Assembly: GCA_937858935.1 (NCBI GenBank)
Contig: CALLZX010000077.1
Location: forward strand, 1-44,767
Direction of reading: 5' to 3'
Source: an uncultured Ignavibacteriales bacterium
GTDB lineage: Bacteria; Bacteroidota; Ignavibacteria; Ignavibacteriales; Ignavibacteriaceae
DNA: 44,767 nucleotides
Below, piece after piece: positions 25,402 through 42,868 of the stretch; the stretch's first letter is position 1, and each line of letters begins with the position of its first letter. Under the pieces are notes generated by a model that was not told the DNA's origin, did not search any database, and was given only the letters and a program-made list of their open reading frames with translations. The translations under genes and the position numbers were made by a program.

Positions 25402-26433
25402 TTAGAAACCAACTGAAAGAGCAAAAACATGGTTTCCATCAAAGTATTGAGCTGTTCTATAAGCATAATCTACTCTCAATAGAATTCCATCAAGATTTAC
25501 ATTTACACCAGCACCGGCAGTTAAACCATATAAATATTGTTCACTGTCTACATCTGGAGCAAATTGATAACCTAATCTTGCAAAGAATTGATTATTGAAG
25601 CCATATTCAGCTCCAAACTTATATTCATCTTCTGAGAAGTTGTTATTTAGAAATACGCCTGCTAATTGAACAGCATTTTGTTCATCAAATTCGGCTTTAT
25701 ATCCAACACCCATTTCAAAAGAAGATGGCAGATCAAATTTTGCTGCTTCAATTTTAGTGTACTGCGGCGGACGATTCTGATCCTGCACTGATGAAAGAAC
25801 AAGCATTCCAGAACCATCATATTGCATTTGTGGTCCAACATTTTTCATAGCAATACCAATGCTTAATCCTTTTATATCAGCAAGAGTATTGTATATAACG
25901 CCAACATTAAAACCAAAACCTGTAGAGCTAGCGTCTCCAAGAGTTTCAGTAATTAAGTTAGCTGTAAGACCAACAGATATTCTTTCTGTTAATTGGCGTG
26001 AGTATGTTAACCCTGCAGTTAACATTTGCGGGGAAAATACCGCTCCGCCTAATCCGTCAGGATCAGTGGTTGTGGTAACTAATATATCGCCAATTCCAAG
26101 ACTTTTTAGACTTAATGCAACAACTCCAAAGCCTTCAATATTTGTAGCTACAGCACCATATTCTACACCAATATCTGCTAAATATGACATGTGTGAAAAC
26201 ATAACACTGGTAGAGTTTTGCATATTAGCCACACCAGCAGGATTCCAGAATATTGATTCTATACCCTGTGCTACTGCAAGATTGGCTTCACCCATTGCTA
26301 TACCGCGCGGACCAACAGGAATAAGCAGCTGAGCAGCTCCTCCTGTACCTGTTCTATTTCCACCTCCAGCATATACATCAAGTGTAAGCAGGAGGGCAAG
26401 AACTATTATTAATAATCTAAATATATTTTTCAT
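25402..26433 (-). CDS. PorV/PorQ-family outer-membrane protein
   Basis: A 343-residue FadL-like barrel protein of the PorV/PorQ (UPF0164) group, with a signal peptide ending near residue 22 (VYAGG). The conserved N-terminal block AQLLIPVGPRGIAMGEANLA and the IFWNPAGVA motif are typical, and the C-terminus ends in strand ALSVGF. PorV-type proteins act at the outer membrane with the T9SS translocon and carry cargo to the attachment complex. This copy is the last gene of an operon with a large exported protein and a TonB receptor, so it may be a dedicated shuttle for that operon's product rather than the general PorV. The last step is inference. Confidence 0.87.
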   Translation of the reverse strand: MKNIFRLLIIVLALLLTLDVYAGGGNRTGTGGAAQLLIPVGPRGIAMGEANLAVAQGIESIFWNPAGVANMQNSTSVMFSHMSYLADIGVEYGAVATNIEGFGVVALSLKSLGIGDILVTTTTDPDGLGGAVFSPQMLTAGLTYSRQLTERISVGLTANLITETLGDASSTGFGFNVGVIYNTLADIKGLSIGIAMKNVGPQMQYDGSGMLVLSSVQDQNRPPQYTKIEAAKFDLPSSFEMGVGYKAEFDEQNAVQLAGVFLNNNFSEDEYKFGAEYGFNNQFFARLGYQFAPDVDSEQYLYGLTAGAGVNVNLDGILLRVDYAYRTAQYFDGNHVFALSVGF

Positions 26434-26464
26434 TTTTACTCCTATACTTTTTTACTTGATTTCA

Positions 26465-29400
26465 TTAGAATCTATCAAGAATTTGTTGTTCCTGAATAAC
26501 AGCTATTTTAAGGATTTTTGTCTCACCAAGATCAGGTAAATCAATATATGCGAGATACAATCCGCTTGCGACCGGTAATCCAGCTGTATTTGCTAAATCC
26601 CATCTTAGGAATTGATCAATATCATCCTTATTTATTGTTCTTACATGAACACCTGCAAGATTAAAGATTCTAATTGTTGCTTTTTCTGGTAGATGGCTAA
26701 ACGTAACAAATTTGTTGTATTTATTAAGTTCTTCTGTATTTACACCATAATATGGATTTGGAAATACATTAATTTTATCCACCTGTGTTTTAGCAAGTTC
26801 ATTAGAGAAAGATGAACCATTAGTGTTGAATAAATATTTATCCACACCAATTTGAATTGGGTTATCGTATGATACTGTGACAACATCACCAAGTGTATAG
26901 TTGGTTCCGTAAAATACAAGTACCCAGGTTGCTGGATCACGAAGTGCACCAGTTAATGGTGTAGTTGCATTGTAAGCAGAGTTTACAATAATTGCATACA
27001 TTCTGTTAACTGGGTTCCAGGCATAAAATGGTTCCGCAGTTGGCGTTTGAATACGATCTCTAAACATTAAATTAACCTGAGTCTGAGTATCTTTATTCCA
27101 AACCTCAAATGGTACCCGAATCAAGAAAGGAGCAGTAGAACCCGGATTAGGATTAAGCGGGTGTGTAGCTAAACCAGCAGCACCTGTTACAGTAGAGAAT
27201 ATTGTAGCGAGCGAGCCTGTTCCTTCTCTAACTGTTATACGGGTTTGTCCGCCAACTACAGTAGTATCCCAAATTCCTGTAAATCTTAATTCATAATCTA
27301 ATTGTAGTTCATCAATACTATAAGTACCAAATCCAAAGTTATCCGCTGCATAACTAGTTATGGTGCCACCAAATATTGTATAGTTTTGTATATCAAGATT
27401 ACCAGTAGAAGAATTTGAAGATAATGTAGTCGGACTATTTGCCGGACTAAGTGTAAGTCTATCACCGCTGAAATTTATAGGAGCTTCATATACTACACTT
27501 ACTCCTACCTGGAAGCCATCAACAATAGGATCTGCTGTTGTTGTTGGATTTAATTGTGCAGCATTAAAATCATCGCGTGGAGGGAATAGATACTCGCCGC
27601 CGATAATACCTTGGTTTTCAAGAAGAACTGTACTAGTTGTAACATCTCTTAAATTCCAATACTTTGCTGTTCTGGTTAGATTAGCAATAGTAGAAACTGT
27701 TGTTGTTCCTGACGCATCAATAGGCCCCCCTGCCCAACCGTCATCAACAATAACCCAGTCAACAGCAAGAGGTAAATTAGCAGGTTCGATATAAACAATC
27801 CATTCTTCAGTTCCTTCAAAAGCACCATTACCAGTTAATGATCCAGAGACATCACCAAAGTTGATTGTATTGCCAACAATTTCTGGAACGATTATACCGC
27901 CATTTGCAGCATCATGATTCAATGCTTGAAAGGTTGGAGCACTAAGAATATTTACACCAGCAGGGAAAGTCATTGAAAGACCATCGCACCAGTCACCGTC
28001 AGCTGATACTAGATTTAACAAGCAATGAAGCTCCACTTCACCAGAAGTGCCATATACAGCGGCTATATCTATTGAAGATCCTGTTAATGTATCCGGGCCC
28101 ATATTTCCGTCAACTACGGCAGCAGCAACCCAGTCACCATTCTGATCTCTTATCTCTGCACGCTGTGTAAAGAACACTTCGTAATTATGACCTGTTGTTG
28201 CAGCAGGATCAACCACACTAACTGTTGGACCGCCATCTGCAGTTCCTTCATGTGTTATTGTAACTGCGCCACCTGATTCATCACCGTATGTAACACCTGG
28301 ATTTGGAGTTTGTGGAATAACAGTAAGAATAGCAATTGGATTTTCAAGATTATTTGGAACAGCTGCAAGATCAGGATTATAACTATATGCTGTAACCGCA
28401 AAGTAATACTTAATTCCGTTTACCAACGGAATTCCGCCATCAACAGCATCATTTGTTATAGAAATAAATCGTCTAATTCCAGTATCGTTTCCAAACTGAA
28501 CAGGATATTTAATTACAGAGCCTGTTTTTACATCAAAAACAAAATCCGAAATTTTTCCAACTGCATCAACAATATCATAAGTGGCAATTCTAATACCTTC
28601 TGACACCTGAGATGAAGCAGTAGGCAATTGATATATATTGTATCCCTGGAAGGAGTGTCCCTTTTTGTTAAAGGTTTCAGTAGCTTCAACTTTTGCTGTA
28701 TTCTTTGACCAGTCAAGTATTATTTCTCTATCTAAAGAAGTAACAGAAACTTCCGGTGCCGGTGGAGCTGTTGGAAGATCAAAGAAGTTATTGTAAGCTA
28801 CTTGTGCCTGAGCATCATAAAACTTTAAAAGTCCTAATGCTGAAAGTCTATCAACACCAGGTATTGCACCTGCAACTATTTCAGCAACTACTACTTCCTG
28901 GGTATCACCAGGAGCCATATTGAATGGACCGGATGCGCTTCCCTGACGTCTATCGCCAGCGGGTAACTGTTCACCGTCTCTCCAACCTGTACCAGCTTGC
29001 GGATCACCATTTAAAGCATAAGTTGTTGGAAGCAATGTTTTAAGATCAATAAACGGAGCACCTGAAACACCAAATTTACCCTGGAAGAAATTATAAAATT
29101 CACGTGAACCATCTATTTCTCCCTGTGGCGGATCGCCGATGTTAGCATCACCATTAGCAAAATAATATGCTGCAGTCATTGGTAAATTAATTTTGCCTGG
29201 TCCTGCTACCTGGTTATTAAATATTCCAAAATCAGAAGCATCATCTATTCCGTTTTTATTTATATCTTCACCTGCTATTCCATCAATAAGTGGTCCCTGA
29301 AAAAAGTCAAAGCCAACTGCTGGAGGAGGTAGTGGATTATAAGTTGCATCTGTTGCACCAAAATTATAGCAATATTGTAAACTCAAAGTAGTATCAACAC

Positions 29401-30274
29401 CAACAAAATCATCGCCTGCATCACCAAGATCAACATCCGAAAACATTGAAAAATACATATTTTCAAATGTAATTGGATTTACAGTTCTATCTGTTATGTT
29501 GATAACTTTATATTTTCTAAAATACATACTGCCAAGAGCGTTTGCCTGATTGTATGCCCAAATAGTTACCTGGCACTCGATTCCCAGAGGATTTGCACCA
29601 TAAAGATATGTGGTTTGTCCGGAATTTAAATCATTAGCAACAAACCATATTGTTTGATCTGCATCTTTAACGCCTGGTATATCTATAGTTGGTTCATATA
29701 TACCATTTGTATTGACATCATTAAATGGTGCACCCATATCTGCTGGCCATTCTGTCCAATCTGCTTCATATTGAGTTCTAATTGCTGCTTCAGATGTTCC
29801 ATCTAATGCGGCTTCCGTTGATAGATCAACATTTGGATCAGATCCTGGAAACACATCACGTCTAACTCTATAGATTCTATATTTATCCAAAGTTGTTACA
29901 TCTGCGGTTCCATCAGGTAATACTTTACCTGGTTGCAGGCCGGTTCTATATGCAGTACCGCCAACTCTTGGATCCGGATCTCCGGCAACTCTTGCACCCC
30001 AAAGAAGACCAGATGTAAACACTGCTGTTTTACCGCTTCCTTTAGGATAAACTAATCCTGAGTTACCTGATGCGGATATATCAGAAATACCATTATTAAA
30101 AAAGTATGTTGATATATTATTAATGTTTAGACTAGTTAACGCAACATAGTTATTGATTTTTTTCAAATCCTTATTGCTGTTATCTTTCTTATCCCCCTCT
30201 GCCCTTAAACCGGGTGCGAGGAAGAAGATACTCATCACAAAGACAAGTATATATTTAATTTTTCTATAACTCAT
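26465..30274 (-). CDS. Large exported protein with T9SS-type C-terminal domain, partner of TonB receptor
   Basis: A 1269-residue protein with a signal peptide (about 1-25, ending LRAEG). Residues about 505-645 include a fibronectin-III-like domain (EIILDWSKN, GYNIYQ, YYFAVTAYSYNPD). The region between is beta-rich and threonine/glycine-rich with no family I can name. The C-terminal ~105 residues (INVFPNPYYG, IRIFNLAGVHVRT, ASGLYLAYI) resemble a FlgD/T9SS type A sorting domain but end ILDRF rather than with the usual lysine. It sits between the TonB receptor (34-nt gap) and the PorV-like gene (31 nt). A plausible role is a surface ligand-binding partner for the receptor, analogous to SusD, although it has no SusD similarity that I can see. 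Confidence 0.75.
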   Translation of the reverse strand: MSYRKIKYILVFVMSIFFLAPGLRAEGDKKDNSNKDLKKINNYVALTSLNINNISTYFFNNGISDISASGNSGLVYPKGSGKTAVFTSGLLWGARVAGDPDPRVGGTAYRTGLQPGKVLPDGTADVTTLDKYRIYRVRRDVFPGSDPNVDLSTEAALDGTSEAAIRTQYEADWTEWPADMGAPFNDVNTNGIYEPTIDIPGVKDADQTIWFVANDLNSGQTTYLYGANPLGIECQVTIWAYNQANALGSMYFRKYKVINITDRTVNPITFENMYFSMFSDVDLGDAGDDFVGVDTTLSLQYCYNFGATDATYNPLPPPAVGFDFFQGPLIDGIAGEDINKNGIDDASDFGIFNNQVAGPGKINLPMTAAYYFANGDANIGDPPQGEIDGSREFYNFFQGKFGVSGAPFIDLKTLLPTTYALNGDPQAGTGWRDGEQLPAGDRRQGSASGPFNMAPGDTQEVVVAEIVAGAIPGVDRLSALGLLKFYDAQAQVAYNNFFDLPTAPPAPEVSVTSLDREIILDWSKNTAKVEATETFNKKGHSFQGYNIYQLPTASSQVSEGIRIATYDIVDAVGKISDFVFDVKTGSVIKYPVQFGNDTGIRRFISITNDAVDGGIPLVNGIKYYFAVTAYSYNPDLAAVPNNLENPIAILTVIPQTPNPGVTYGDESGGAVTITHEGTADGGPTVSVVDPAATTGHNYEVFFTQRAEIRDQNGDWVAAAVVDGNMGPDTLTGSSIDIAAVYGTSGEVELHCLLNLVSADGDWCDGLSMTFPAGVNILSAPTFQALNHDAANGGIIVPEIVGNTINFGDVSGSLTGNGAFEGTEEWIVYIEPANLPLAVDWVIVDDGWAGGPIDASGTTTVSTIANLTRTAKYWNLRDVTTSTVLLENQGIIGGEYLFPPRDDFNAAQLNPTTTADPIVDGFQVGVSVVYEAPINFSGDRLTLSPANSPTTLSSNSSTGNLDIQNYTIFGGTITSYAADNFGFGTYSIDELQLDYELRFTGIWDTTVVGGQTRITVREGTGSLATIFSTVTGAAGLATHPLNPNPGSTAPFLIRVPFEVWNKDTQTQVNLMFRDRIQTPTAEPFYAWNPVNRMYAIIVNSAYNATTPLTGALRDPATWVLVFYGTNYTLGDVVTVSYDNPIQIGVDKYLFNTNGSSFSNELAKTQVDKINVFPNPYYGVNTEELNKYNKFVTFSHLPEKATIRIFNLAGVHVRTINKDDIDQFLRWDLANTAGLPVASGLYLAYIDLPDLGETKILKIAVIQEQQILDRF

Positions 30275-30308
30275 ATTTTGAAACTCCTATTTTTTTATAC
30301 TATCAATT

Positions 30309-33300
30309 TTAGTATTCTAATTGAAATCCAAATCGAACTTGGCGTGGAGGACCATACAATACGCCAACATTTGTTTGATAAGCTTGATAATAGTCAATGT
30401 TTATTGCTCTATACATAGCTTCATATTCTTCTCTTTGATAGGTCTTTAATGTTCCGCCTAATCCTGGATCATTCAAATAACCATCATCAGTAGGAGTTCC
30501 TGTTCTAAGGAACACGTTTGTGATGTTTGCTGCATCAAAAAGATTAACAATAAAGAAGTAAACATTTGCACGCAATTTATCAGTAATAGAAAAAGATTTA
30601 TCTATCTTTAAATCAAGCTGACTTGTCCATGGAGTTGTTGATGAGTTCAAAGCTTCTATCGGAGATCTAAATCTGTTATCTCCTTCTAATGAACCGTTGT
30701 TATCTCCTTTTCCTGTTCCAAGTGTATATGGATGTCCGCTGTCAAAAGTAAAGAGAGCAGCAACACCAAATTCACGTAAAATAGGTGATTCGGTATCTGC
30801 AGGAAATCTATAATCTATATTCATATTTCCTGTGATTGCCTTGTTGAAATCAAGAGGAGCAATATTAGTTGGTTTAAATACTGTAACTCCATCTAACGGA
30901 GCGCCAACTATACCTGCTTTAGAATTTGGATTAGATCCTGTTCCCTGAGCATTCTGGAATGCAACAGAAGCGTTAACCTGAATGTTTTCCACTCTTCTCA
31001 TATTAAATGATACTTCAACACCCATCGTTGTTGCAAAGTCACCATTTTTAAGAATATTATATGACTGATATGGTGAGCCTGATGCTGTGTTTTGAATATC
31101 AAATTCAACCTGATCCTGTATGTCTTTATAATATCCGGTAATATCAAAAGATGCAAAGTTTGAAACTTGTTGTGTAAACCCAATTTCATACTGTGTAGTT
31201 CTTGTAGGTCTAACATCTAAACCAACCGGAGTTGAAATAAAGAATCCGCCTCTTAATTGAGTACCAAGACCATAAATACCTTGATACATATCTCTTAGTC
31301 TTGACTGTTGAACGAATTTACCATACTGTGCATGAAAAACAGTTGCATCAGTAACAGGGAAAGAGAAACCAATACGAGGACTGACAGCGCTGAAAGATTC
31401 TGTTTTTGTTAATCCTGTAGGATCAATTTTATTTGTCGTAAATTCAATCGCTGATTCAGGACGAGTTGCGTCTTTAAGGATTAAATTGTCTGTATCAAAG
31501 TAGTCAAATCTTAAACCAACATTTAAGATAAGGTCTTTGTATGTTATTTTATCTTCAAGATAAGCACCAGCAAATACTGGTTTTTTAGGAGCTAATAGTC
31601 CTGCATCATCAACTGCACCATTCTCATTAAAATCGCCGTCTATTTCATTTCCAAAATGATCATAACCATAACTATTGGTTAATGAAATCATAACATCATT
31701 AATTGGTAATGGATTGGCAAGCTGACTGTTCTTAAATACATCGTTAGCATATTGAGCTGCTGATCTGCCTGCTGCAAAACCATAGCTTCTTATTGTATAC
31801 GTAGATAACTCACCACCAAACTTAATTGAATGGATTTTATCTATTTCAGTTGAAAAAGCCGCGTTAAAATTAAAAACTTCTCTTTTATTCTTGCTGTAAG
31901 CAGCAGTAATATCATTAGGGGCAAAGAAATTAAAACCAAGAACATCATAAGAAGTTGGTCTTTGATATCTACCAATTCTTCCCTGAGAGATATCTCTGGC
32001 TGTTCGCTGCCAAACAGCTCCAACTTCTGCATTTGCAACGCTATCTCCGTATAATTCCCAATTATCTCTTAACAATGGATCCATATTTTCTGTAAAGTTA
32101 TATGTATAGCCAGCACTTATTTCGTAATAAGTAGTTGGACTTAAAATATGGGTCATCTTAGCAGAAAACGAAGAGTTTGCACTTTCGAAAATTGAGATTC
32201 TTCCAAGATTCAATAATTGGCTGATGTTTCCACCGCCGCCATTTCCACCTTTAGAATCTGTATAGGATCCAGTTACTCTAAATATTAATGGATTAAAATC
32301 AAATGTTAATGTACCTGTGCCGGTATAAATTTGATTTTGAGCTCCATAAGTAGGTCCAGCTGGATAATACATTTCAATTGAATTTGTTTCCGGTGTTGTA
32401 GATTGCTGATCTGTTATTACACCAAGATCAATTCCAGGGAAAGGCAAAGGATTCTGATCTAACTTCCAGTTTGAATTAATTAAACCAAAAAATTTAATGT
32501 TATCTGCAAATAGAGGTCCGCTTATTGTACCTGTGAATTCATTATAACCATACTGATAAGCGCCTAAAGTTTGTTCGCCATTAAATCTATCATCTTTGCT
32601 TTTGAAGGTCAAATTATCTGTAACGTAAGCAATGCTAAATTTAAAATCAGATGTACCTGATTTAAGCTGAGTTCTTACAATACCGGAATTTGCTCCGCCA
32701 TATTCAGCAGTATAACCACCAGCTTGCACTTGAATTTCTTCAACCGCATCCTGTACAATTGTAACACCGCGTCCGCCCAATACCGGGTTGGTAATGTTAG
32801 TACCTTCAAGGTAATAGCCAACTTCATCAACACGTCCACCTCTTATGTAAACGTTTTGATTTTGAATGACAACACCAGGTGTTAATTTCAAAATGTTATT
32901 AAAATCTCTTACAGGCAAATCATCAATGATATCGCTTGTAGTTGTTCTAATAGCATTTGTGTTGCTGGGGTTAATGAGTGGTCGTTCTGATACCACGACA
33001 ACTTCTCCAACTGATATCCCTTCGCCGGGCAATTGAAAATTAAGTTCTGTGGTAAGATCAGTATTAACACGTACGTTAGTAAGTGTAATTGTTTGATACC
33101 CGATGTAAGAAGCTTTTACTTCATAAACACCGGCTTGTAAATTGAAAATAGTGTACTCACCTTTTACGTCCGTTGCTGCTCCCAATGAGGTTCCAACTAC
33201 TAAAACGTTGGCACCTATTAGAGGTTCGCCGGATGTAAGGTCAGTAACTTTTCCTTTTATTTTTCCCGTTTGAGCCAACATTATTGTCGGCAGTAGTAAA

Positions 33301-33332
33301 AGGGAAAATAGAATAGTAAACCATCTATTCAT
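30309..33332 (-). CDS. TonB-dependent receptor with carboxypeptidase-regulatory-like N-domain
   Basis: A 1007-residue outer-membrane receptor. A signal peptide (1-20) is followed by a carboxypeptidase-regulatory-like domain (about 23-105: GKVTDLTSGEPLIGANV, GEYTIFNL). Next is a plug domain with DLPVRDFNNILKLTPGV, NVYIRGGR and VEEIQVQAGGYTAEYGG, then a 22-strand-type barrel ending VRFGFQLEY. The domain order is that of SusC-like receptors, but no SusD gene is present; the next gene encodes a T9SS-type exported protein instead. The substrate is unknown. It is the first gene of the operon, with AAGGAGAG before the ATG and a 372-bp untranslated region upstream. Confidence 0.9.
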   Translation of the reverse strand: MNRWFTILFSLLLLPTIMLAQTGKIKGKVTDLTSGEPLIGANVLVVGTSLGAATDVKGEYTIFNLQAGVYEVKASYIGYQTITLTNVRVNTDLTTELNFQLPGEGISVGEVVVVSERPLINPSNTNAIRTTTSDIIDDLPVRDFNNILKLTPGVVIQNQNVYIRGGRVDEVGYYLEGTNITNPVLGGRGVTIVQDAVEEIQVQAGGYTAEYGGANSGIVRTQLKSGTSDFKFSIAYVTDNLTFKSKDDRFNGEQTLGAYQYGYNEFTGTISGPLFADNIKFFGLINSNWKLDQNPLPFPGIDLGVITDQQSTTPETNSIEMYYPAGPTYGAQNQIYTGTGTLTFDFNPLIFRVTGSYTDSKGGNGGGGNISQLLNLGRISIFESANSSFSAKMTHILSPTTYYEISAGYTYNFTENMDPLLRDNWELYGDSVANAEVGAVWQRTARDISQGRIGRYQRPTSYDVLGFNFFAPNDITAAYSKNKREVFNFNAAFSTEIDKIHSIKFGGELSTYTIRSYGFAAGRSAAQYANDVFKNSQLANPLPINDVMISLTNSYGYDHFGNEIDGDFNENGAVDDAGLLAPKKPVFAGAYLEDKITYKDLILNVGLRFDYFDTDNLILKDATRPESAIEFTTNKIDPTGLTKTESFSAVSPRIGFSFPVTDATVFHAQYGKFVQQSRLRDMYQGIYGLGTQLRGGFFISTPVGLDVRPTRTTQYEIGFTQQVSNFASFDITGYYKDIQDQVEFDIQNTASGSPYQSYNILKNGDFATTMGVEVSFNMRRVENIQVNASVAFQNAQGTGSNPNSKAGIVGAPLDGVTVFKPTNIAPLDFNKAITGNMNIDYRFPADTESPILREFGVAALFTFDSGHPYTLGTGKGDNNGSLEGDNRFRSPIEALNSSTTPWTSQLDLKIDKSFSITDKLRANVYFFIVNLFDAANITNVFLRTGTPTDDGYLNDPGLGGTLKTYQREEYEAMYRAINIDYYQAYQTNVGVLYGPPRQVRFGFQLEY

Positions 33333-33704: not shown

Positions 33705-35249
33705 CTATAAACGCGTAAGAATTTTTAATTCCACACCCTGAAAAGCTGGTTCGTACCTGCAAATTCCACCAATACAAATGTTGCCGGCTTGCCTTGTTCC
33801 GACAAGCAAACTTAAATCACTGTGATTACCAAGCTTGTATCCAAATTGTATAAAGCTCCAGAATTTTCTTACAACATTTCCTTCCTGAGGTTCTTTGGTT
33901 TGAAGTTCTGCTACAACGGCAACACTAAAATTTGGAGAACGTAAATATTCAATGTTAATTATATCATCGTAATATTTTTCATCAGTTGTAAGATTTTCTG
34001 TTTGTTGGTGTTCCAGTACTAATTTAATTGTATTAATATCATCAAAGTAAAATTTGTTTTCCAAAATTGGTGTAAAGTTTTTTGTGTTTGTTGATAACTC
34101 TTCGTTGTATCCAAAAGCAAGTATTGAGGTTAATGATTCACTCCAATTATGTGCTGCTTGTAAATATATTTCTTCTAACTGTGTAGCAATGGGAAGTGAA
34201 AGATTATTCACTTGCTGATAATAGGAACTAGTAGGAAGTGTGTTAGTAATACCATAATTAGCTATCAATGATGTTTCATCCGAAATATTGAAATTCATTT
34301 CAACAGCATATCCCTCTTCATTTGATTGATCAAGCGGAGATGGATGACGATTCAGCAGTTGATAAGTATATTCTTTTCTCAAGGACGGTGCAGTGTTATA
34401 AAATATTGTTCCGTCATTAGAGGTGAAAGCATAGTTATCATAATATTTATATTCACCAACAATTGAAAAAACATCATAATAAAAATTCAAACTGCCGTAA
34501 AATGCTTCGCCAATTTTCCATTCATCATCATGAAAAACCTGTGACTGAACATCCTCATTACTCTTAACTCCATACTCAGCATATCCATCAAAATTCCAAT
34601 AAGACGGTTGTATTCTAAATGAAGCTAATGTTGTTCTGGCCACTCCTTCAATCGATGGCAAGTTAGAGGCAAATGTTGTACCCAGTTTCACCAAATCAAA
34701 TTTGCCATATTGCAAATCAACAGCATGAAGAATGTCTTCTCTTAAATTATTTGAGTTAGCTGCCGAACCTGAAAGTGCGGTAAGTGTAAAACCCTCATAA
34801 TTAGCCTCAACCTTTACACCTATTAGATTATTATCGATTCTTATATTTCTATCCTCGTAACTTTTTAAAATTAACCCGCGACCAAAAAGTTTGTAAAAAT
34901 TTCCTACCGTTATATTTAATCCTTCTTCAACATCACCGATATCTACCCCGATATATTTATATGCAATATCTGCATACTTAACTTTTCCTCTGCTTATGGA
35001 TGGATCCGGATCATTTGGCTGGAATATTTCGAATCTAATCCCGGCACTAAAAATATTTTTGTTATAATCCAGATTTAACCAGTTTTCAAAAATTTCATTA
35101 TTAGTATCGGTATCGTACGAGTATTCAAGCTGATTTGAAAAACCTAATCCATCTGGCAAAAGAAACCATCTATTGTCAGTTTGACTAATTACTTTTGTTG
35201 ATAATATAATTATTAATAAAATGGTGATGCGAGTAATGGCAGTTTTCAT
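33705..35249 (-). CDS. DUF6029-like outer-membrane beta-barrel protein
   Basis: A 514-residue exported protein (signal about 1-22, ending VISQ). The conserved block VGNFYKLFGRGLILKSYEDRNIRIDN is spread over residues about 115-142, and the C-terminal CIGGICRYEPAF region precedes a terminal strand. Together these resemble the DUF6029 family of Bacteroidota outer-membrane proteins. The many amphipathic strands indicate a barrel. Function is unknown. It follows the TlpA gene but is separated from it by a strong terminator whose stem ends only 37 nt before its start codon, so its own promoter must overlap that hairpin or it depends on read-through. No Shine-Dalgarno is visible. Confidence 0.72.
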   Translation of the reverse strand: MKTAITRITILLIIILSTKVISQTDNRWFLLPDGLGFSNQLEYSYDTDTNNEIFENWLNLDYNKNIFSAGIRFEIFQPNDPDPSISRGKVKYADIAYKYIGVDIGDVEEGLNITVGNFYKLFGRGLILKSYEDRNIRIDNNLIGVKVEANYEGFTLTALSGSAANSNNLREDILHAVDLQYGKFDLVKLGTTFASNLPSIEGVARTTLASFRIQPSYWNFDGYAEYGVKSNEDVQSQVFHDDEWKIGEAFYGSLNFYYDVFSIVGEYKYYDNYAFTSNDGTIFYNTAPSLRKEYTYQLLNRHPSPLDQSNEEGYAVEMNFNISDETSLIANYGITNTLPTSSYYQQVNNLSLPIATQLEEIYLQAAHNWSESLTSILAFGYNEELSTNTKNFTPILENKFYFDDINTIKLVLEHQQTENLTTDEKYYDDIINIEYLRSPNFSVAVVAELQTKEPQEGNVVRKFWSFIQFGYKLGNHSDLSLLVGTRQAGNICIGGICRYEPAFQGVELKILTRL

Positions 35250-35326: not shown

Positions 35327-35833
35327 TTATTTTTCTAGTAATTCAGATATTATTTTCTCAACTTTTTGTTCATCACCTTTCATATAACCAAGGTGCGAGT
35401 ATACAATATTTCCAGTCTTATCTATTACTACGGTGTATGGCATTTGCTGGGCATAGTACTTTCTTGAAACTTCACTGTTTGTATCAAGTACAACTGGAAA
35501 TTTGTAATCTTTTGATTTGATGTAAGGCTTTACCTTAGCCACTGATTTTTCAGTGTCCGTTGAAACGGCAAGCAAAATAAATCCCTTTTCTTTATATTGC
35601 TCATAAATTTTATTGTACTCAACCATTTCTTCCAGGCAAGGCTTGCACCAAGTTGCCCAAAAACTTAAAAGAATAGGACCATTACCGGTTATGCTGTTTA
35701 ACTCAACATATTTACCATCAAGATTAACAAGTTTAAAGTTGGGTGCTTTTCTTCCGGTAATATCTTCTTCATTTTGTGCGATAACGGGAAGCGAAACAAT
35801 AAACACAAAAACTAACAACAAAAGAAATTTCAT
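35327..35833 (-). CDS. TlpA/ResA-type periplasmic thioredoxin
   Basis: A 168-residue exported thioredoxin-fold protein with a signal peptide of about 19 residues (LPVIAQ). The active site is W62-C63-K-P-C66 and the cis-proline loop is QMPYTVVID. The APNFKLVNLDGKYVELN opening is typical of TlpA/ResA proteins, which reduce disulfides in exported proteins or carry reducing power outside the membrane. Its ATG follows the TAA of the preceding T9SS module gene with no spacer, so the two are translationally coupled. With three CxxC Omp28-type proteins upstream, it could supply or accept electrons for them; this is inference. Confidence 0.9.
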   Translation of the reverse strand: MKFLLLLVFVFIVSLPVIAQNEEDITGRKAPNFKLVNLDGKYVELNSITGNGPILLSFWATWCKPCLEEMVEYNKIYEQYKEKGFILLAVSTDTEKSVAKVKPYIKSKDYKFPVVLDTNSEVSRKYYAQQMPYTVVIDKTGNIVYSHLGYMKGDEQKVEKIISELLEK

Positions 35834-36571
35834 TTATTTCTCCAAAATCATTTTTCTTGTTTGAACAAATTCACTAGTAACAATTTTATAGAAGTAAACA
35901 CCACTGCTAAGATTTGATGCGTTTAGTAAAGCTGTGTGTTTGCCCGCAGATTTAAATCCATCAACCAGTGTTGCAATTTTATTACCAAGAATATTATATA
36001 TAGAAATTTCAACATTGCCGGCTTTCTTCAATCCATAATTTATTTGTGTAGAAGGATTGAAAGGGTTTGGATAGTTTTGAGCTAAATAATAATCAGTGAC
36101 TGATGTTTTTTCATCTTCTACAGAAACAGGATTAACTGTTGCAGTAAAGTCAGTCGTAATCCTAACAGATGGATTTCGGAATGTGCCTACTTGTACTTGA
36201 ACGTTTGCTGTACCACTGTTATTTAATGCTGTTACATGTAAAGAAGTTATTAATGTTTCTCCTGGATTTAAAGGAAGCGTTGTTCCAAAATCAGAAGTTG
36301 TTGCTATGCTGTCTAAAAATGGAGGAAAGCAAGTCTGATCAAAACACAGTGAAGACTGCCAATCAGCAGGTAGATTATTGATCGTTCTAACTTCGAAAAT
36401 AGTTTGTACATATTGAGAAATATTTTTTACCTCAAAATCAAAAACCATTTCCGATCCAAGGGTGCTGTCTATGAACGTTCTATGAACTGTAACCTCAATA
36501 TCTTGGGCCTTAAATGTTCCCGTAAGGGTAAAAATTAAAAACATTATAACTCTAAAAACTTTATTCATCAT
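35834..36571 (-). CDS. Short T9SS cargo consisting of one duplicated module plus sorting tail
   Basis: A 245-residue exported protein. After a signal peptide (about 1-22) residues 24-245 align without gaps, about three quarters identical by eye, to the last 222 residues of the protein at 38908-41337. The module holds a ~125-residue beta-rich part with an LCF(x)nTCFPPFLDS cysteine motif and a type A T9SS sorting domain (NYPNPFNPSTQ to the final lysine). It is therefore a stand-alone copy of another protein's C-terminal half attached directly to a signal peptide. I start it at the ATG at 36571; a TTG three bases upstream is less likely. It is directly coupled to the TlpA gene. Confidence 0.85.
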   Translation of the reverse strand: MMNKVFRVIMFLIFTLTGTFKAQDIEVTVHRTFIDSTLGSEMVFDFEVKNISQYVQTIFEVRTINNLPADWQSSLCFDQTCFPPFLDSIATTSDFGTTLPLNPGETLITSLHVTALNNSGTANVQVQVGTFRNPSVRITTDFTATVNPVSVEDEKTSVTDYYLAQNYPNPFNPSTQINYGLKKAGNVEISIYNILGNKIATLVDGFKSAGKHTALLNASNLSSGVYFYKIVTSEFVQTRKMILEK

Positions 36572-36607
36572 CAAACCTGATTTTATTTATAAATACTGAA
36601 AAAGAGA

Positions 36608-36644
36608 TTTAACGGAAGGAACAAATAATATTCCTTCCGTTAAA
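36608..36644 (-). terminator. Terminator after the Omp28-type T9SS cargo gene
   Basis: A perfect 14-bp stem TTTAACGGAAGGAA/TTCCTTCCGTTAAA (36608-36621 with 36631-36644) has a 9-nt loop and a T-rich minus-strand downstream side. It lies 8 nt after the stop at 36653. Confidence 0.9.
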
Positions 36645-36652
36645 ATTAGGAA

Positions 36653-38734
36653 CTACTTTAAAATACTCATCTTTTTAACCTGAGAAAAACTGTTTGATGT
36701 CATTTTGTAGAAGTAAACTCCCGATGACAATCCGACAGAATTAAAATCAACTTCAAAATTACCTGCTTCTTTAACTTCATTTACTATTATTGCAACTTCC
36801 TGCCCTGTTAAATCATAAACTGCAATTGTAACTAGACCACTTTGAGGAACAGAGTATTTTATTTTTGTAGTTGGGTTAAAAGGATTTGGATAATTTTGTC
36901 CAAGTGCATAATCAATTGGCAATTCAATCACTACAGCAACAACATCACTATAATTTACACTGCCGCTATAGTCAACTTGTTTAAGTCTATAATAGATTGA
37001 TTGGGTTGCATTATACTCAAACTCATCAACAAAAGAATATGATCTTGGTTCTGTTGTAGTACCATTTCCTTTAATAAAACCAACAGCAAAAAAAGTATTA
37101 CCATCAAATGACCTTTCTATTTCAAAACCTGAGTTATTAAGCTCAGTTGCCGTTGTCCAATCAAGCTGTACTTTGCCAGAATTAGCTTTAGCTGTAAAAG
37201 ATGTTAACTCAACTGGTAAAGGACTTAATTCTTCGAGAGCAACTTTGGTTCCCTGAAGAATTTCTTTACCGTCAAGGTTTTGTATAAAAGAAACAAGTTC
37301 GCAGTTAGCTAATACCCATGCAGCATTTTTACTAAAGTTAAGGTTTATATCAATAACATTTCCTGATGAAAAATCAAGTGGTGTTCCAAGTTCATTTGGA
37401 ACCATTAATCTTTCAGCATTATGTACCATTGTTTGTCCCTGCCAGTTGAAAGGGATTTCTGATTCAGTTAATGCTAAATGCAGTACAAGATTACTGTATG
37501 ATGCGGGAACATTTGCATGTTTAGTAATACGAAGATTTAATGAATAATCCAGCCCGCTGTTTTGTCCATAAATTTCAATTGAATACGCTGAATTTTTTGC
37601 TTTACGTGCATCATAAATAGGAAGATAGGTTGTATACATACTAACGGTATTGCTTCCGCCAACAACATATTGAACACCATCAAATACAGCTGTTGGAAAT
37701 CCAGAAATTCCGTAATAAGTATTTCTTGCGTTTGAAAATGTGTTTGTAAAAGTATCCCCGTTATGATATTTAATCACACCAACAGCTTTTCCATTTGTAA
37801 TTAAATCGTGGGCACCCATTGCAGCCCCCGGACAATATTGACACCAGGTACCTGTTCCAATCTCTAAAATAACCATACCTCTTTGCGTAGTGTATGTATC
37901 AAATCCTTCGATTCTGCTATCATTTGTTGGATCTAAGTCACCGGCTAAATTTGTAGTAACATTTACCTCATAAAGATCATTAGCCGCCGTAGGTGTAAAG
38001 TCAGGAAATGATACTATCTGTTCAACACCAGCAGCAAGATTTACAGCCGGGCAATTCTGTGTATAGACTGAAGTGCCATTCAATTTTATTATGCAGGTCG
38101 CATCAAATGTTTCTGAATTCAATCCAAAGTTTTTTAATCTGGCCTGAGGTGTAAAGGGGGTTCCTGCCACATATTCAGGATTGATAACAATGTCTTTTGT
38201 CATTGCGTCGTGTGCAAGAGGAACAAATAATTTAACATCATCTATATACCAGTAATTCAAGTTGTAGGAATCGCCACTAAAGAAAAAACATACTTGAAAA
38301 TCTGCTGCGCCAACATCAGAATTGCTAATATTAATTAGCTCCTCACTCTGTGTACTTGCAGAAGGATTAACGATTGACCAAACAGTATTCCATATTCCTC
38401 CGCCTGATCGGGTTGCAACTCCAATTGTATAGGGACCGCCATAATGATCTAATGAATGTTTAAATTGAAACATTAATAATGTTTTCCCCGTAGTATTAAC
38501 TGCAGGAGAAATAAAATGTGAAGTGGCGTTAAATTGAGGAGTCCAATTTAATCTTAACTCTGGAGCAACACCGCCAGCATTGGCGGAGGCTACTGCTGAC
38601 CAATTACCCGATTGAAGATCTATACTCCAACCAGCTGGTGGATAGCCACCTGCAAAATCAACGGTTAATAATGGTTGTGAATTTGCCAAAAATGGTATAA
38701 GAACAAAAACTAAAAGAGTAAAGAGTCTTTTCAT
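36653..38734 (-). CDS. Omp28-type T9SS cargo with thioredoxin-fold CxxC domain
   Basis: A 693-residue exported protein in several parts: signal peptide (1-19); a MAM/jellyroll-like domain (about 25-170, ending YWYIDDVKLF); a CARDB-like stretch (about 175-275); an Omp28-like thioredoxin-fold domain with C298-QY-C301 in GTWCQYCPG and GFPTAVFDG as the likely cis-proline loop; a fibronectin-III-like region (about 505-600); and a type A T9SS sorting domain (NYPNPFNPTTK to the end). Omp28 proteins of Bacteroidota are outer-membrane or surface proteins linked with adhesion, and their redox role is unproven. It is the first of three Omp28-type genes here, with its own terminator. Confidence 0.85.
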   Translation of the reverse strand: MKRLFTLLVFVLIPFLANSQPLLTVDFAGGYPPAGWSIDLQSGNWSAVASANAGGVAPELRLNWTPQFNATSHFISPAVNTTGKTLLMFQFKHSLDHYGGPYTIGVATRSGGGIWNTVWSIVNPSASTQSEELINISNSDVGAADFQVCFFFSGDSYNLNYWYIDDVKLFVPLAHDAMTKDIVINPEYVAGTPFTPQARLKNFGLNSETFDATCIIKLNGTSVYTQNCPAVNLAAGVEQIVSFPDFTPTAANDLYEVNVTTNLAGDLDPTNDSRIEGFDTYTTQRGMVILEIGTGTWCQYCPGAAMGAHDLITNGKAVGVIKYHNGDTFTNTFSNARNTYYGISGFPTAVFDGVQYVVGGSNTVSMYTTYLPIYDARKAKNSAYSIEIYGQNSGLDYSLNLRITKHANVPASYSNLVLHLALTESEIPFNWQGQTMVHNAERLMVPNELGTPLDFSSGNVIDINLNFSKNAAWVLANCELVSFIQNLDGKEILQGTKVALEELSPLPVELTSFTAKANSGKVQLDWTTATELNNSGFEIERSFDGNTFFAVGFIKGNGTTTEPRSYSFVDEFEYNATQSIYYRLKQVDYSGSVNYSDVVAVVIELPIDYALGQNYPNPFNPTTKIKYSVPQSGLVTIAVYDLTGQEVAIIVNEVKEAGNFEVDFNSVGLSSGVYFYKMTSNSFSQVKKMSILK

Positions 38735-38829
38735 ATCATTCCCCTTAGAATGATTAATAAATATGTTAATTAAGAGTACAGGATCATAAAACTGTAATTA
38801 CATTTCATAAAGATTAAAAAATGAATTTA

Positions 38830-38898
38830 CTGCTTTGCTGGTAAAACTTGTTTTAATTCTAACGATAAAAATGAAACAGGTTTTATCCAGCAAAGCAG
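38830..38898 (-). terminator. Long hairpin terminator after the 813-residue-ORF Omp28 gene
   Basis: A 12-bp perfect outer stem CTGCTTTGCTGG/CCAGCAAAGCAG (38830-38841 with 38887-38898) continues inward as an imperfect AAAAC/GTTTT stem. On the minus strand a T-rich stretch follows. It lies 9 nt after the stop at 38908. Confidence 0.8.
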
Positions 38899-38907
38899 TC
38901 TAATAGA

Positions 38908-41337
38908 TTACTTTAAAAGCATCATCTTTCTTATTTGAACAAAATCTTCGGAAATAATTTTATACAGATACACACTGCTGCTTAATTTTGATGCATTAAA
39001 AGTTACAGAATGGTTACCTGCAGGTTTGTGTCCATCAATCAATGTTGCAATTTTATTTCCCAGCATATCGTAAACTGTTATCTCAACATTTCCGGCTTTT
39101 TTCAATCCAAAATTTATTGTTGTAGATGGATTGAAAGGATTAGGATAATTTTGATCTAGGTAATATTCTTTTACAATTGCATTTTCATCCTCAACAGAGG
39201 TAGCAATTGCAGTCGCTGTAAAATCGATTGTCAATCTATCTGTTGGATTTAGAAATGTACCTATCTGGATCTGAACATTTGCGGTTCCATCATTTTGTAA
39301 TGCTGTAACATGCAAAGATGTTATTAAAGTATCACCAGGGTTTAGCGGAAGTGTTGTTCCAAAATCTGAAGTAGTTGCAATACTATCTAAAAATGGAGGA
39401 AAACATGTTTCTCCAAAACAAAGAGAAGACTGCCAGTTGGCTGGTAAATCATTTATCGTTCTAACTTCAAAAACTGTTTGCTGAACTTGTGAAATATTTA
39501 TCACCTCAAAATCAAATATCATTTCTGCACCAAGAGTACTATCTATTTGAGTTTGATGAACAATAACTTCTAAAGCTTGAGTTGGGATTACAACATTTTC
39601 AGCTAACCAGCGAAGACTTCGCGCAGCAATTGTATCTCTTACAGGTTGCTCTGTTATTTGTTCTAAACCTGCAACCATATAAACAACACGATAATTATCT
39701 GCAGCTGCTCTAACACCCGCAACATCGGGTCCATTAAAGTATGTTAAGAATGATGTTGCATTTGAATCTCTTGGTGCAATTTTATCCAGAGATCTGTCAT
39801 AAATTGAATTTGCAATAAATTGAATACCGTTAGAAATAATATCTCCGGTAATTCCTTTTATGAAAAACAGGTTAGAAAAATCTGCTACATAATTTGTGTG
39901 CAAATAATTATGATAAAAATCTTGAGCAAACTGACTTTGACCAGAAGCCTCAAATATATCTGCACCTAAATTTTGGCCGGTAATTAATAGATTACCACCG
40001 CCAGTTAAATAATCCTCAAGTTTTGTAACTTCATTTTCATAAAATGCACGATCTGAATTACTTGCCTGCCAAACAACAATACCGAAATTAGATAAATCAA
40101 TATTTGAAGGTTCTAATGCTGATCTTGAAACTGCACCATAGGTGCCTTCAAATACATTGTTGATTGATCCTGTAACATATGATTCAAATTCTCTACTTCC
40201 GGCACTTATTACAAGAACATCTGTTCCTCCGTTTGTAACATTGTTAAAAGTAATTGTACCAGACATACCGGGGTTATTATGTGACTCAAATTCAACGACA
40301 GTATTACCATATCCATTTATTCCCTGCGGATCTATTTCAATTTGAATCACCGCAGAATCGTCAGGGCTGATTTCAATTGAGTCGGCTGTTCCAAAAGAAA
40401 AAGTTCCGTTAGCTGTGGTATACTCTCCAACCCAACCAACAGGTGCATTTAGTGAACAATTTATTGTGTAAACATCAGACATCATTCCAATGTTTTTAAT
40501 AACTGCATTAAAACTTACCGGTGTGCTATTGTCTGAAATTACATCTGGACTTTGTGAATTTATTTGAGCCACAAAATTTGGAACGATTTCAAACATCTCC
40601 GACTGATAAATAGACTTATTACTTTCATTTTGTATAAACGCTACAACTCTCAAACTATCCATATTTACAGATTGCAAAAAGGATGCTGTTGGTATATATT
40701 GAAGTATAATTTCAGTTGAGTCGCCTGGGGCAGGAATGGTTAATATTGTTCCATTTCCATCGGGCATCATTTTTCTGCAAACACTAGAAAAATGTGATTC
40801 ACCGTTTGTACCTGGAGGAGTGGGAAATACTACGGTTTTTTCTGTCAAAGCAACTTTAAGTTTGGTAGTTCCAAAAGTTGTAACATCACCCGGATCTCTT
40901 ATAATCTTAACACCAATCTCTACAAGATTATCTGATAAAGCTCTCTGAGTCATAATTATTTTAAATGGAGAGTATTGAGAATTACCTGTGTTAACTGCAT
41001 TAATAAACGTTGATTGTACGGTTGCTGTTGTAGCTCCATTAACAACTATCCACGGAACTGAATTTACTCCATAATAATTTGTACGGGTTGTGTTATCCGG
41101 AGTATTTAATAAATACATTGGATCATTAGCGCCCGGCCACCAGACATTATATATAAGATGCGAAATAGACTCAGTGGCAAGCATACCAGCTGTTGTAGCA
41201 TTGTACCAAGCATTATTTAATGATGCACAAGGTGCACACGAAGCATTAGTAAATCTTTCGACAAGAGATTTTTTATCATAAGAATAGGTGGTAAAAGCAA
41301 AAACTAAAACGAGTGAAAAAAGTAGTATTCTTTTCAT
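38908..41337 (-). CDS. Omp28-type T9SS cargo with GATase-like middle domain
   Basis: An 809-residue exported protein. After the signal (about 1-20) comes an Omp28 thioredoxin-fold domain with C34-AP-C37 in TNASCAPC and the paralogous VFPTPPGTNGE...RKMMP block. A CARDB-like stretch (about 250-350) follows, then a Rossmann-like domain resembling class I glutamine amidotransferases (about 355-585: LVISAGSREFE, LEDYLTGGGNLLITGQNLG) without an obvious catalytic cysteine. The last 222 residues are the module shared with the gene at 35834, ending in a type A T9SS tail. I place the start at 41337, where GGAGA lies 7 nt upstream; the ORF could begin four codons earlier. Confidence 0.83.
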   Translation of the reverse strand: MKRILLFSLVLVFAFTTYSYDKKSLVERFTNASCAPCASLNNAWYNATTAGMLATESISHLIYNVWWPGANDPMYLLNTPDNTTRTNYYGVNSVPWIVVNGATTATVQSTFINAVNTGNSQYSPFKIIMTQRALSDNLVEIGVKIIRDPGDVTTFGTTKLKVALTEKTVVFPTPPGTNGESHFSSVCRKMMPDGNGTILTIPAPGDSTEIILQYIPTASFLQSVNMDSLRVVAFIQNESNKSIYQSEMFEIVPNFVAQINSQSPDVISDNSTPVSFNAVIKNIGMMSDVYTINCSLNAPVGWVGEYTTANGTFSFGTADSIEISPDDSAVIQIEIDPQGINGYGNTVVEFESHNNPGMSGTITFNNVTNGGTDVLVISAGSREFESYVTGSINNVFEGTYGAVSRSALEPSNIDLSNFGIVVWQASNSDRAFYENEVTKLEDYLTGGGNLLITGQNLGADIFEASGQSQFAQDFYHNYLHTNYVADFSNLFFIKGITGDIISNGIQFIANSIYDRSLDKIAPRDSNATSFLTYFNGPDVAGVRAAADNYRVVYMVAGLEQITEQPVRDTIAARSLRWLAENVVIPTQALEVIVHQTQIDSTLGAEMIFDFEVINISQVQQTVFEVRTINDLPANWQSSLCFGETCFPPFLDSIATTSDFGTTLPLNPGDTLITSLHVTALQNDGTANVQIQIGTFLNPTDRLTIDFTATAIATSVEDENAIVKEYYLDQNYPNPFNPSTTINFGLKKAGNVEITVYDMLGNKIATLIDGHKPAGNHSVTFNASKLSSSVYLYKIISEDFVQIRKMMLLK

Positions 41338-41373
41338 ATAAGTCTCCATTAATATTTTATTGCTATTATCAAT

Positions 41374-42354
41374 TTAAAATGTAGATCCTGCCTGGTAAAT
41401 TTCTTTTGTGTCTTTATTCTGTATGAATACAACGGTGTTTATGTTGTTTTGAATCCAAGCAGAGTTTAGTGTTAGCTGCCTTTGAAAATTATAGACGCCA
41501 ACTTGATTGATGGATGCTAATGATTCTCCCTGATTACTGGGAAGCATTTTTCGCATTACATCATAAAACTTTGTTTCTCCGTTTGAACCTGGTGGAGTTG
41601 CAAATTCAATATTAGTTTCAGTTACTACTGAGTGAAGAACAAGTTTTGAAAAATCGATATTAGTAATATCCTTAACCTCAACAGAGATATTTATAGTATA
41701 GTTGCTTCCTGCGTTACTCGCACTAACATCAATTATAAACTGCGGCACTTTTGCCAATTCAGAAAAAATTTTATTCTTAACATCATTAGAGTCCGTAGAA
41801 GTTGGTCTTAAATTGCCATCAACTATTGTAGTTGGGGCAAACAATATATTATAATAACCCATTCTTGCGTTGCAATCCGGACCATTTGCAAGATAAAAAG
41901 GATCTACTGGTGAAGGAAAGTTTGTTGGGTATTTTATCGCAACGAGTTTTGAGGTTCCAAAGTTATCATTAATAAGATGTTCTATGATTTTATTACTTGT
42001 TACACATGGTCCGCAGCTAACATTAGCAAAGTCTTCAATTAAAACTATTTTATTTGCAGCAAAAAGATTTGCAGTTAATTCAATCTCAGTATTCTTTAAA
42101 ATATTAATATTCAATATTAAGCTATCATAATTCTCTTTGACTAATTCTATTGTATGATTTCCAACGGTTGTTTTTAATGTATCGGGTGTTAGTTTGCCAG
42201 TATCATTTCCATCAAGAAATATTTTAGCATTAGGAACATTTGATATAAGTTTAACACTGCCATATTCAACAATAGGTGTAACAGGTGTAGTTGGTGGATT
42301 TGTCTCGCAGCTTACATATAAAATTGCAAGAAAGAGAATAAGAATTTTTCTCAT
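41374..42354 (-). CDS. Lipoprotein with PEGA and Omp28-like CxxC domains
   Basis: A 326-residue lipoprotein (lipobox YVSC, about C16). A PEGA domain follows (about 30-85: GSVKLISNVPNAKIFLDG, VGNHTIELVKENY). After it comes an Omp28-like thioredoxin-fold domain with C114-GP-C117 (NVSCGPC), a cis-proline-like FAPTTIVDG and the family block FATPPGSNGE...MRKMLP. There is no T9SS tail, so it is lipid-anchored rather than secreted. I chose the ATG at 42354, where the lipoprotein signal starts; the ORF is open for 33 more codons upstream without a recognisable signal. It lies 36 nt upstream of the 809-residue Omp28 protein, so the two are likely co-transcribed. Confidence 0.83.
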   Translation of the reverse strand: MRKILILFLAILYVSCETNPPTTPVTPIVEYGSVKLISNVPNAKIFLDGNDTGKLTPDTLKTTVGNHTIELVKENYDSLILNINILKNTEIELTANLFAANKIVLIEDFANVSCGPCVTSNKIIEHLINDNFGTSKLVAIKYPTNFPSPVDPFYLANGPDCNARMGYYNILFAPTTIVDGNLRPTSTDSNDVKNKIFSELAKVPQFIIDVSASNAGSNYTINISVEVKDITNIDFSKLVLHSVVTETNIEFATPPGSNGETKFYDVMRKMLPSNQGESLASINQVGVYNFQRQLTLNSAWIQNNINTVVFIQNKDTKEIYQAGSTF

Positions 42355-42508: not shown

Positions 42509-42868
42509 TTATGGATTGTGTGCAGCCCAATATCCGCTTATTGAAAACAGTTTAGAATCCGCCCATGTACGTACCTTTATAGTAAAGCCGTCTCTGGAAA
42601 TTGAAATTGCTTCTACATTGTATCTAACATTTGATTCTTTATCAGAATCAATCTGAGTGACACTTAAAAAAATCTGTGGTTTTTTAGTAAATGCTTTTTC
42701 AAATTTTACTTCAATCGTCATAGTTCGCTCACCGTTATTTTTATCAAGCGAGTAAGCTGCTAAACTCTGGTTAACAGACCAACTGCTGCTCTGAATTGTT
42801 TGAGCTGAAGCATTTACTGAGAGTATTATAAAGAAGAAGAGAAATATAAATGTGTGAATATTTTTCAT
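42509..42868 (-). CDS. Small secreted H-type lectin-domain protein
   Basis: A 119-residue exported protein: a signal peptide (about 1-22, ending ASAQ) followed by one complete H-type lectin domain. The pattern VKFEKAFTKKPQIFLSVTQID, RYNVEA, DGFTIKVRTWADSKLFSISGYW is characteristic. These domains bind N-acetylgalactosamine or related sugars as trimers or hexamers in animals, and bacterial copies are mostly uncharacterised. There is no T9SS tail, so it may remain periplasmic or be released. No Shine-Dalgarno is visible. Position next to the Omp28 cluster suggests a surface role, but it is separated by 154 bp and may be independent. Confidence 0.8.
   Translation of the reverse strand: MKNIHTFIFLFFFIILSVNASAQTIQSSSWSVNQSLAAYSLDKNNGERTMTIEVKFEKAFTKKPQIFLSVTQIDSDKESNVRYNVEAISISRDGFTIKVRTWADSKLFSISGYWAAHNP

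Follow-up and report, generated by a model that had tools for sequence, protein, structure and literature searches.

To our knowledge, the thiol-redox pathways described in bacteria end in the periplasm. In Bacteroidota, many proteins with cysteines reside outside the cell, either secreted via T9SS or exposed as surface lipoproteins. One relevant case is HBP35 of Porphyromonas gingivalis (PG0616/PGN0659), which is located at the cell surface, has thioredoxin activity and reduces insulin better than E. coli thioredoxin does; insulin reduction is lost in the C48S/C51S variant, in which both CxxC cysteines are mutated (PMC2907840). HBP35 is itself T9SS-exported and surface-bound, and it was studied alone, from its own 1.1-kb mRNA, with no DUF6029 or TlpA partner reported (PMC2907840). 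Functionally important twin cysteines are also found in outer-membrane proteins of the T9SS and gliding track, where disulphides link SprF/PorG to GldK (PMC12635249). Here we describe a gene cluster in a 44,767-nucleotide window of DNA (contig CALLZX010000077.1) from an uncultured Ignavibacteriales bacterium, in which HBP35-like and TlpA-like proteins are encoded beside an outer-membrane barrel of the DUF6029 family. The nearest named relatives of the locus are Ignavibacteriales genomes.

Results

Six genes around a DUF6029 barrel

The cluster consists of six genes, all on the minus strand, running from 42354 to 33705 with gaps of 24, 173, 81, 0 and 77 bp. The initial annotation had described four exported CxxC proteins of thioredoxin fold in 7 kb, three related to Omp28 and one to TlpA, and these four were indeed found at their assigned positions. 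DUF6029, which is the centre of the conserved cluster, was absent from that description, as was a 245-aa T9SS protein. The features, in the direction of the gene order, are as follows.

41374..42354, minus strand: Omp28 lipoprotein with N-terminal PEGA domain, lipobox Cys16 and SCGPC (C114/C117); ORF, PF11551 at 52 bits and PEGA match
42004..42015, minus strand: CGPC active-site motif of the Omp28 lipoprotein; translation
38908..41349, minus strand: 813-aa Omp28 protein with T9SS sorting tail and SCAPC near the mature N-terminus; ORF and profile matches
41227..41238, minus strand: CAPC motif of the 813-aa Omp28 protein; translation
36653..38734, minus strand: 693-aa choice-of-anchor-J-like and Omp28 protein with T9SS sorting tail and WCQYC; ORF and profile matches
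37832..37843, minus strand: CQYC motif of the 693-aa protein; translation
35834..36571, minus strand: 245-aa T9SS-tail protein with C76-x4-C81 as its only cysteines; profile match and translation
35327..35833, minus strand: TlpA/ResA-like periplasmic oxidoreductase with WCKPC and a Sec signal, no lipobox; PF00578 at 100.4 bits
35636..35647, minus strand: CKPC active-site motif of TlpA; translation
33705..35249, minus strand: DUF6029 outer-membrane beta-barrel with 24 predicted strands and only two cysteines (C492, C497); PF19494 at 208.8 bits, AlphaFold model
33759..33776, minus strand: C-IGGI-C hairpin (C492/C497), predicted in the last extracellular loop of the DUF6029 barrel; translation

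Directly upstream of the cluster lies a secreted H-type lectin of 119 aa (42509-42868), and some relatives (L146, L147) have an ORF of equal size at this position. Positions 25402-33332, downstream of DUF6029 and likewise on the minus strand, encode a TonB-dependent receptor, a protein of 1269 aa whose C-terminus gives a PorZ-like match, and a member of the PorV family.

Omp28 proteins are exported thiol-redox proteins

The window proteins resemble the described Omp28 families (PF11551, NF033782, NF045500) in their profile matches, in the position of the CxxC motif and, for the lipoprotein, in the lipobox. They differ in that two of the three carry T9SS tails and, with PF11551 scores of 27.3 and 29.3 bits, stay below the Pfam cut-off of 34.9. 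The T9SS sorting domain (PF18962/TIGR04183) is above cut-off in the proteins starting at 36653 and 38908 and also in the one at 35834. None of the Omp28 proteins in the window reaches the NCBIfam cut-offs for the lipoprotein (NF033782) or the selenoprotein (NF045500) family; all three do match NF045500 below cut-off (best 73.7 versus 200 bits), and such sequence matches are consistent with a redox site. The active-site motifs of the three proteins are CxxC, with no Sec, and a scan of the collected loci for Sec (U) at this position returned none. An in-frame TGA in one relative (G041), considered as a selenoprotein variant, is a normal stop codon. A further sequence block had been ascribed to all three Omp28 members; this was correct for FIQN, while PPGxNGE and RKMxP occur in only two of the three.

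Among 73 aligned Omp28 lipoproteins, invariance is confined to the lipobox cysteine, the two CxxC cysteines and the cis-proline. The last three (C112, C115 and P172 in aligned-fragment numbering) were invariant among 33 sequences and again among 73, at a mean column identity of ~20%, so that the second cysteine of the motif is as strictly kept as the first; the lipobox cysteine was scored in the larger, lipoprotein-only set of 73. The AlphaFold model built with these 73 sequences (pLDDT 94.5) has a thioredoxin fold with P172 directly ahead of the next strand. In this confident model the CxxC pair does not lie in a buried structural site; it is placed at the N-terminal end of the first thioredoxin helix, where active thioredoxins carry theirs. 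The nearest solved structure is that of HBP35 (5y1a; Foldseek E 1.2e-13; Z 24.8, rmsd 2.4, 217 residues), which has the same two-domain fold and a CxxC motif at 18% identity, and the profile of the 73 lipoproteins matches PDB entries 5y1a and 2r2c. The combination of thioredoxin and Omp28 beta domains was modelled for the lipoprotein; the two T9SS members were assigned to it by profile match. A second structural match, 2axo (Agrobacterium Atu2684, Z 19.2), has the two-domain fold in common, and this proteobacterial match suggests that the fold may extend beyond Bacteroidota.

Because the CxxC and cis-proline are invariant, the site is arranged as in active thioredoxins and HBP35 is active, the assignment of the Omp28 proteins as exported thiol-redox proteins is well supported. 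One could instead suppose that Omp28 merely retains a thioredoxin fold, as has been suggested for Paraprevotella 00502, an Omp28-related protein that recruits trypsin (PMC9477747), and that the cluster is a set of unrelated surface adhesins or protease recruiters. This reading is already disfavoured and we regard it as highly improbable: the CxxC, missing in none of the aligned lipoproteins, and the cis-proline are all that is invariant besides the lipobox, and the gene order with TlpA and DUF6029 is conserved phylum-wide.

TlpA and the 245-aa T9SS protein

TlpA combines an N-terminal signal-like stretch with an AhpC-TSA/Redoxin fold, and its nearest solved relatives are ResA proteins (4nmu, E 5e-27). 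It shares this fold and the WCKPC motif with the TlpA/ResA/CcmG reductants, but is encoded beside an outer-membrane barrel and surface thioredoxins and not in a cytochrome c maturation cluster. In most Ignavibacteriales clusters a T9SS-tail protein lies directly ahead of TlpA. In the window this is the 245-aa protein, 223 aa of which align at 74% identity with the C-terminal part of the 813-aa Omp28 protein (38908-39600); both regions contain a C-x4-C motif (CFDQTC in the 245-aa and CFGETC in the 813-aa protein), and their similarity reads as a recent duplication. The 245-aa protein is possibly a substrate, or its C-x4-C may form a structural disulphide.

An invariant cysteine pair in the DUF6029 barrel

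The match to PF19494, a family without assigned function, is near full-length, and the present locus would link this family to thiol redox. The AlphaFold model, built with 100 sequences, has 24 strands (pLDDT 92.3). Its best structural matches are usher translocation barrels (Z 18-19; FimD, Z 19.1 over 369 residues), AlgE is also among the matches and the MtrB complex appears at rank 27. Loops average 13 residues after odd strands and 3 after even strands, the usual pattern for the outside and the periplasm, respectively, which places the hairpin 489-500 in the last, probably extracellular loop. C492 and C497 are predicted to face each other across the GG turn of this hairpin. In the 100-sequence alignment, invariance is limited to these two cysteines and six glycines. 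All 58 intact homologues from Pfam-selected genomes have the C-x4-C pair (40/40 in a first set and 18 further). The profile used for the collection scan was built from 18 of 40 aligned sequences, and since this pattern contains the cysteine motif, conservation was counted in the Pfam-based loci only. The DUF6029 pair is predicted to lie as Cys-x4-Cys in an extracellular loop of a 24-strand barrel, unlike SprF/PorG, which carry Cys-x-Cys in a periplasmic C-tail, PorG being 8-stranded.

Several apparent family members were set aside. PG0189 is PorG, an 8-stranded barrel; the match in G262 (L244) is false; and searching PDB sequences with the DUF6029 profile returned nothing but 32-residue matches to RecA fusion chains, which we consider spurious. 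In the congener G001, DUF6029 appears as two abutting matches in different frames (C1:3062624-3064001), and in G261 (L122) it is shortened; frameshift or decay is likely in both.

The structural matches also bear on the idea that DUF6029 is a Wzi-like barrel for polymer export. AlgE is found among them, and one paper, which suggests this role on the basis of HHpred similarity, notes a resemblance of Wzi barrel matches to DUF6029 (PMC9603273). Wzi matches, however, occur in only 2 of 67 neighbours of the module, no polysaccharide family recurs otherwise, and the conserved partners of DUF6029 are thiol oxidoreductases, which makes a role in polysaccharide secretion very unlikely.

DUF6029, TlpA and Omp28 occur together

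Among 59 relatives, DUF6029 was found in 31 genomes and Omp28 in 33, with Omp28 present in all 31 DUF6029 genomes versus 2 of the 28 others. In a phylum sample of 247 genomes, 69 have DUF6029, 53 have Omp28 and 49 have both (Fisher 1e-30, uncorrected for phylogeny); Omp28 thus occurs in 49/69 genomes with DUF6029 versus 4/178 without it, again uncorrected for phylogeny. Genomes with DUF6029 are nearly all T9SS genomes: SprA is present in 67 of the 69, one exception being the incomplete genome of the window itself.

Gene order shows the same association. In 40 Pfam-selected loci, TlpA adjoins DUF6029 on its 5' side in 31 (position -1; 27 co-directional) and is found at no position more than two genes away, and Omp28 lies directly downstream (+1) in 22. 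In the family of the window the Omp28 genes are found upstream of TlpA instead of downstream of DUF6029. The TlpA/DUF6029/Omp28 trio occurs in 80 named loci, from Ignavibacteria, Kapabacteria, Bacteroidales, Flavobacteriales, Chryseobacterium and Chitinophaga. Thioredoxin-fold CxxC proteins account for 123 of 353 genes within three genes of DUF6029 versus 4 of 174 beyond five genes (60 related loci), so that the cluster is conserved above chance. The four exported thioredoxin-like proteins therefore belong to a gene module conserved across the phylum Bacteroidota. Among 67 other neighbours of DUF6029, no Pfam family recurs except T9SS tails (6 members).

Other thioredoxin folds take the place of Omp28

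By Pfam, 20 genomes have DUF6029 without Omp28, and most of them belong to one family (f27) with a divergent DUF6029, which we call Flavobacteriaceae-like, the name being presumptive. The order in this family is TlpA (WCKPC), DUF6029 (CTSGIC) and a redoxin (mostly CPHC), and in most loci another redoxin, which carries a T9SS tail, comes next; in the type case, L144, the Redoxin and Por_Secre_tail domains were confirmed by Pfam. In loci L228-L243 of this family, a T9SS-tailed redoxin is the surface member and represents an exported thioredoxin lineage distinct from Omp28. Some rumen Bacteroidales encode a 483-aa protein with a C-terminal redoxin domain (CINC) ahead of TlpA. Since other exported redoxins stand in the place of Omp28, what is kept is an exported thioredoxin fold rather than Omp28 as such, which argues that thiol chemistry, and not another property of Omp28, holds the module together.

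These replacements weigh on a further explanation, redox-assisted uptake, in which a metal, haem or a comparable ligand would enter through a DUF6029 channel, Omp28 would capture the ligand at the surface and the thiols would handle or release it. HBP35 is the nearest solved relative; it binds hemin, and in hemin-free conditions its mutant grows poorly (PMC2907840). A barrel with a surface lipoprotein resembles known uptake pairs, and the TonB-dependent receptor gene lies 372 bp downstream of DUF6029. Hemin binding by HBP35, however, needs neither the CxxC nor the thioredoxin domain (PMC2907840), the redoxins that replace Omp28 keep the thioredoxin fold and not the Omp28 beta domain, and no metal or haem family recurs beside the module among the 67 neighbours. 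Overall, we consider uptake unlikely.

Discussion

The module suggests that these bacteria have a machinery for handling disulphide bonds on their outer surface. We tentatively favour, with some reservation, a thiol-disulphide system that runs from DsbD through TlpA and the DUF6029 hairpin to the surface Omp28 proteins. With the same degree of caution, the locus may be taken as the Ignavibacteriales version of a Bacteroidota-wide envelope module composed of a periplasmic TlpA, a DUF6029 barrel and at least one surface thioredoxin-fold protein. The surface members would here be one lipid-anchored and two T9SS-secreted proteins of the Omp28/HBP35 type, with the lipoprotein presumably facing outwards.

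In this scheme, the inner-membrane reductase DsbD would charge TlpA, and TlpA would exchange with Cys492/Cys497 of the barrel, either via the lumen or during barrel assembly. The surface Omp28 CxxC proteins would exchange with the same pair and act on the disulphides of surface and T9SS-secreted proteins. The barrel pair would have to cycle, and the barrel would be the physical link between periplasm and surface, so that DUF6029 may pass thiol redox equivalents across the outer membrane. A DsbD_TM domain is present in the genome of the window and in 8 of 8 near-complete relatives, VKOR is absent from all nine (0/9), and DsbB was not found in the window's own genome, which is 85% complete. As TlpA is of the WCKPC reductant type, the simplest assumption is that reducing equivalents start out from DsbD. 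A broader role for DUF6029, as an outer-membrane thiol conduit between TlpA and the surface thioredoxins via its C-x4-C in T9SS-bearing Bacteroidota at large, a counterpart of DsbD/CcdA working in the reducing or the oxidising direction, is conceivable but doubtful. The likeness to the outer-membrane electron conduit MtrABC, in which redox equivalents pass between one partner in the periplasm and another at the surface by way of a large barrel, is a works-like analogy: MtrABC carries haem electrons, not thiols, and the visible resemblance goes no further than both having large barrels.

A real difficulty for the relay is that a periplasmic TlpA has no evident access to the hairpin after barrel insertion, if the hairpin is extracellular as modelled. 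The chief rival reading makes DUF6029 a channel for another purpose, with a structural disulphide in its hairpin; TlpA and the surface thioredoxins would be disulphide oxidase or isomerase helpers dedicated to DUF6029 and would travel with it for that reason. TlpA would meet the hairpin only before insertion, and a structural disulphide that needs TlpA and Omp28 for its formation would be equally conserved; DsbD and TlpA are, moreover, widespread. With its C-x4-C placed around a GG turn, the hairpin is ideally suited to a cross-strand disulphide, and the two DUF6029 cysteines always occur together. On the other hand, lipid-anchored and T9SS-exported helpers outside the cell would be odd for a one-off biogenesis step, and TlpA-type WCxPC proteins are typically reductants. 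The invariance of the pair at a mean column identity of ~25%, rumen anaerobes included, also seems to exceed what is usual for a structural disulphide. We therefore hold the biogenesis explanation to be possible but on the whole rather unlikely. Returning to the relay, the initial annotation proposed it among the extracellular CxxC proteins; their export and thiol-redox nature are well supported, the relay itself is plausible and unproven, and it more likely has the DUF6029 barrel as a partner than being confined to exchange between the four CxxC proteins.

Earlier work already covers TlpA, exported thioredoxins (HBP35) and T9SS barrels joined by disulphides (PMC12635249). In the open-access literature searched, we found nothing pertinent to the function of DUF6029, to Omp28 selenoproteins or to a thiol relay that spans the outer membrane. 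We likewise found there neither the association of DUF6029 with TlpA and surface thioredoxins nor the invariant cysteines of the barrel, and a redox role for DUF6029 appears unreported by the same measure. As a conserved barrel that has two invariant cysteines and is usually encoded next to TlpA and a surface thioredoxin, DUF6029 is a concrete candidate for managing surface disulphides, and a common family without known function thereby gains one that can be tested.
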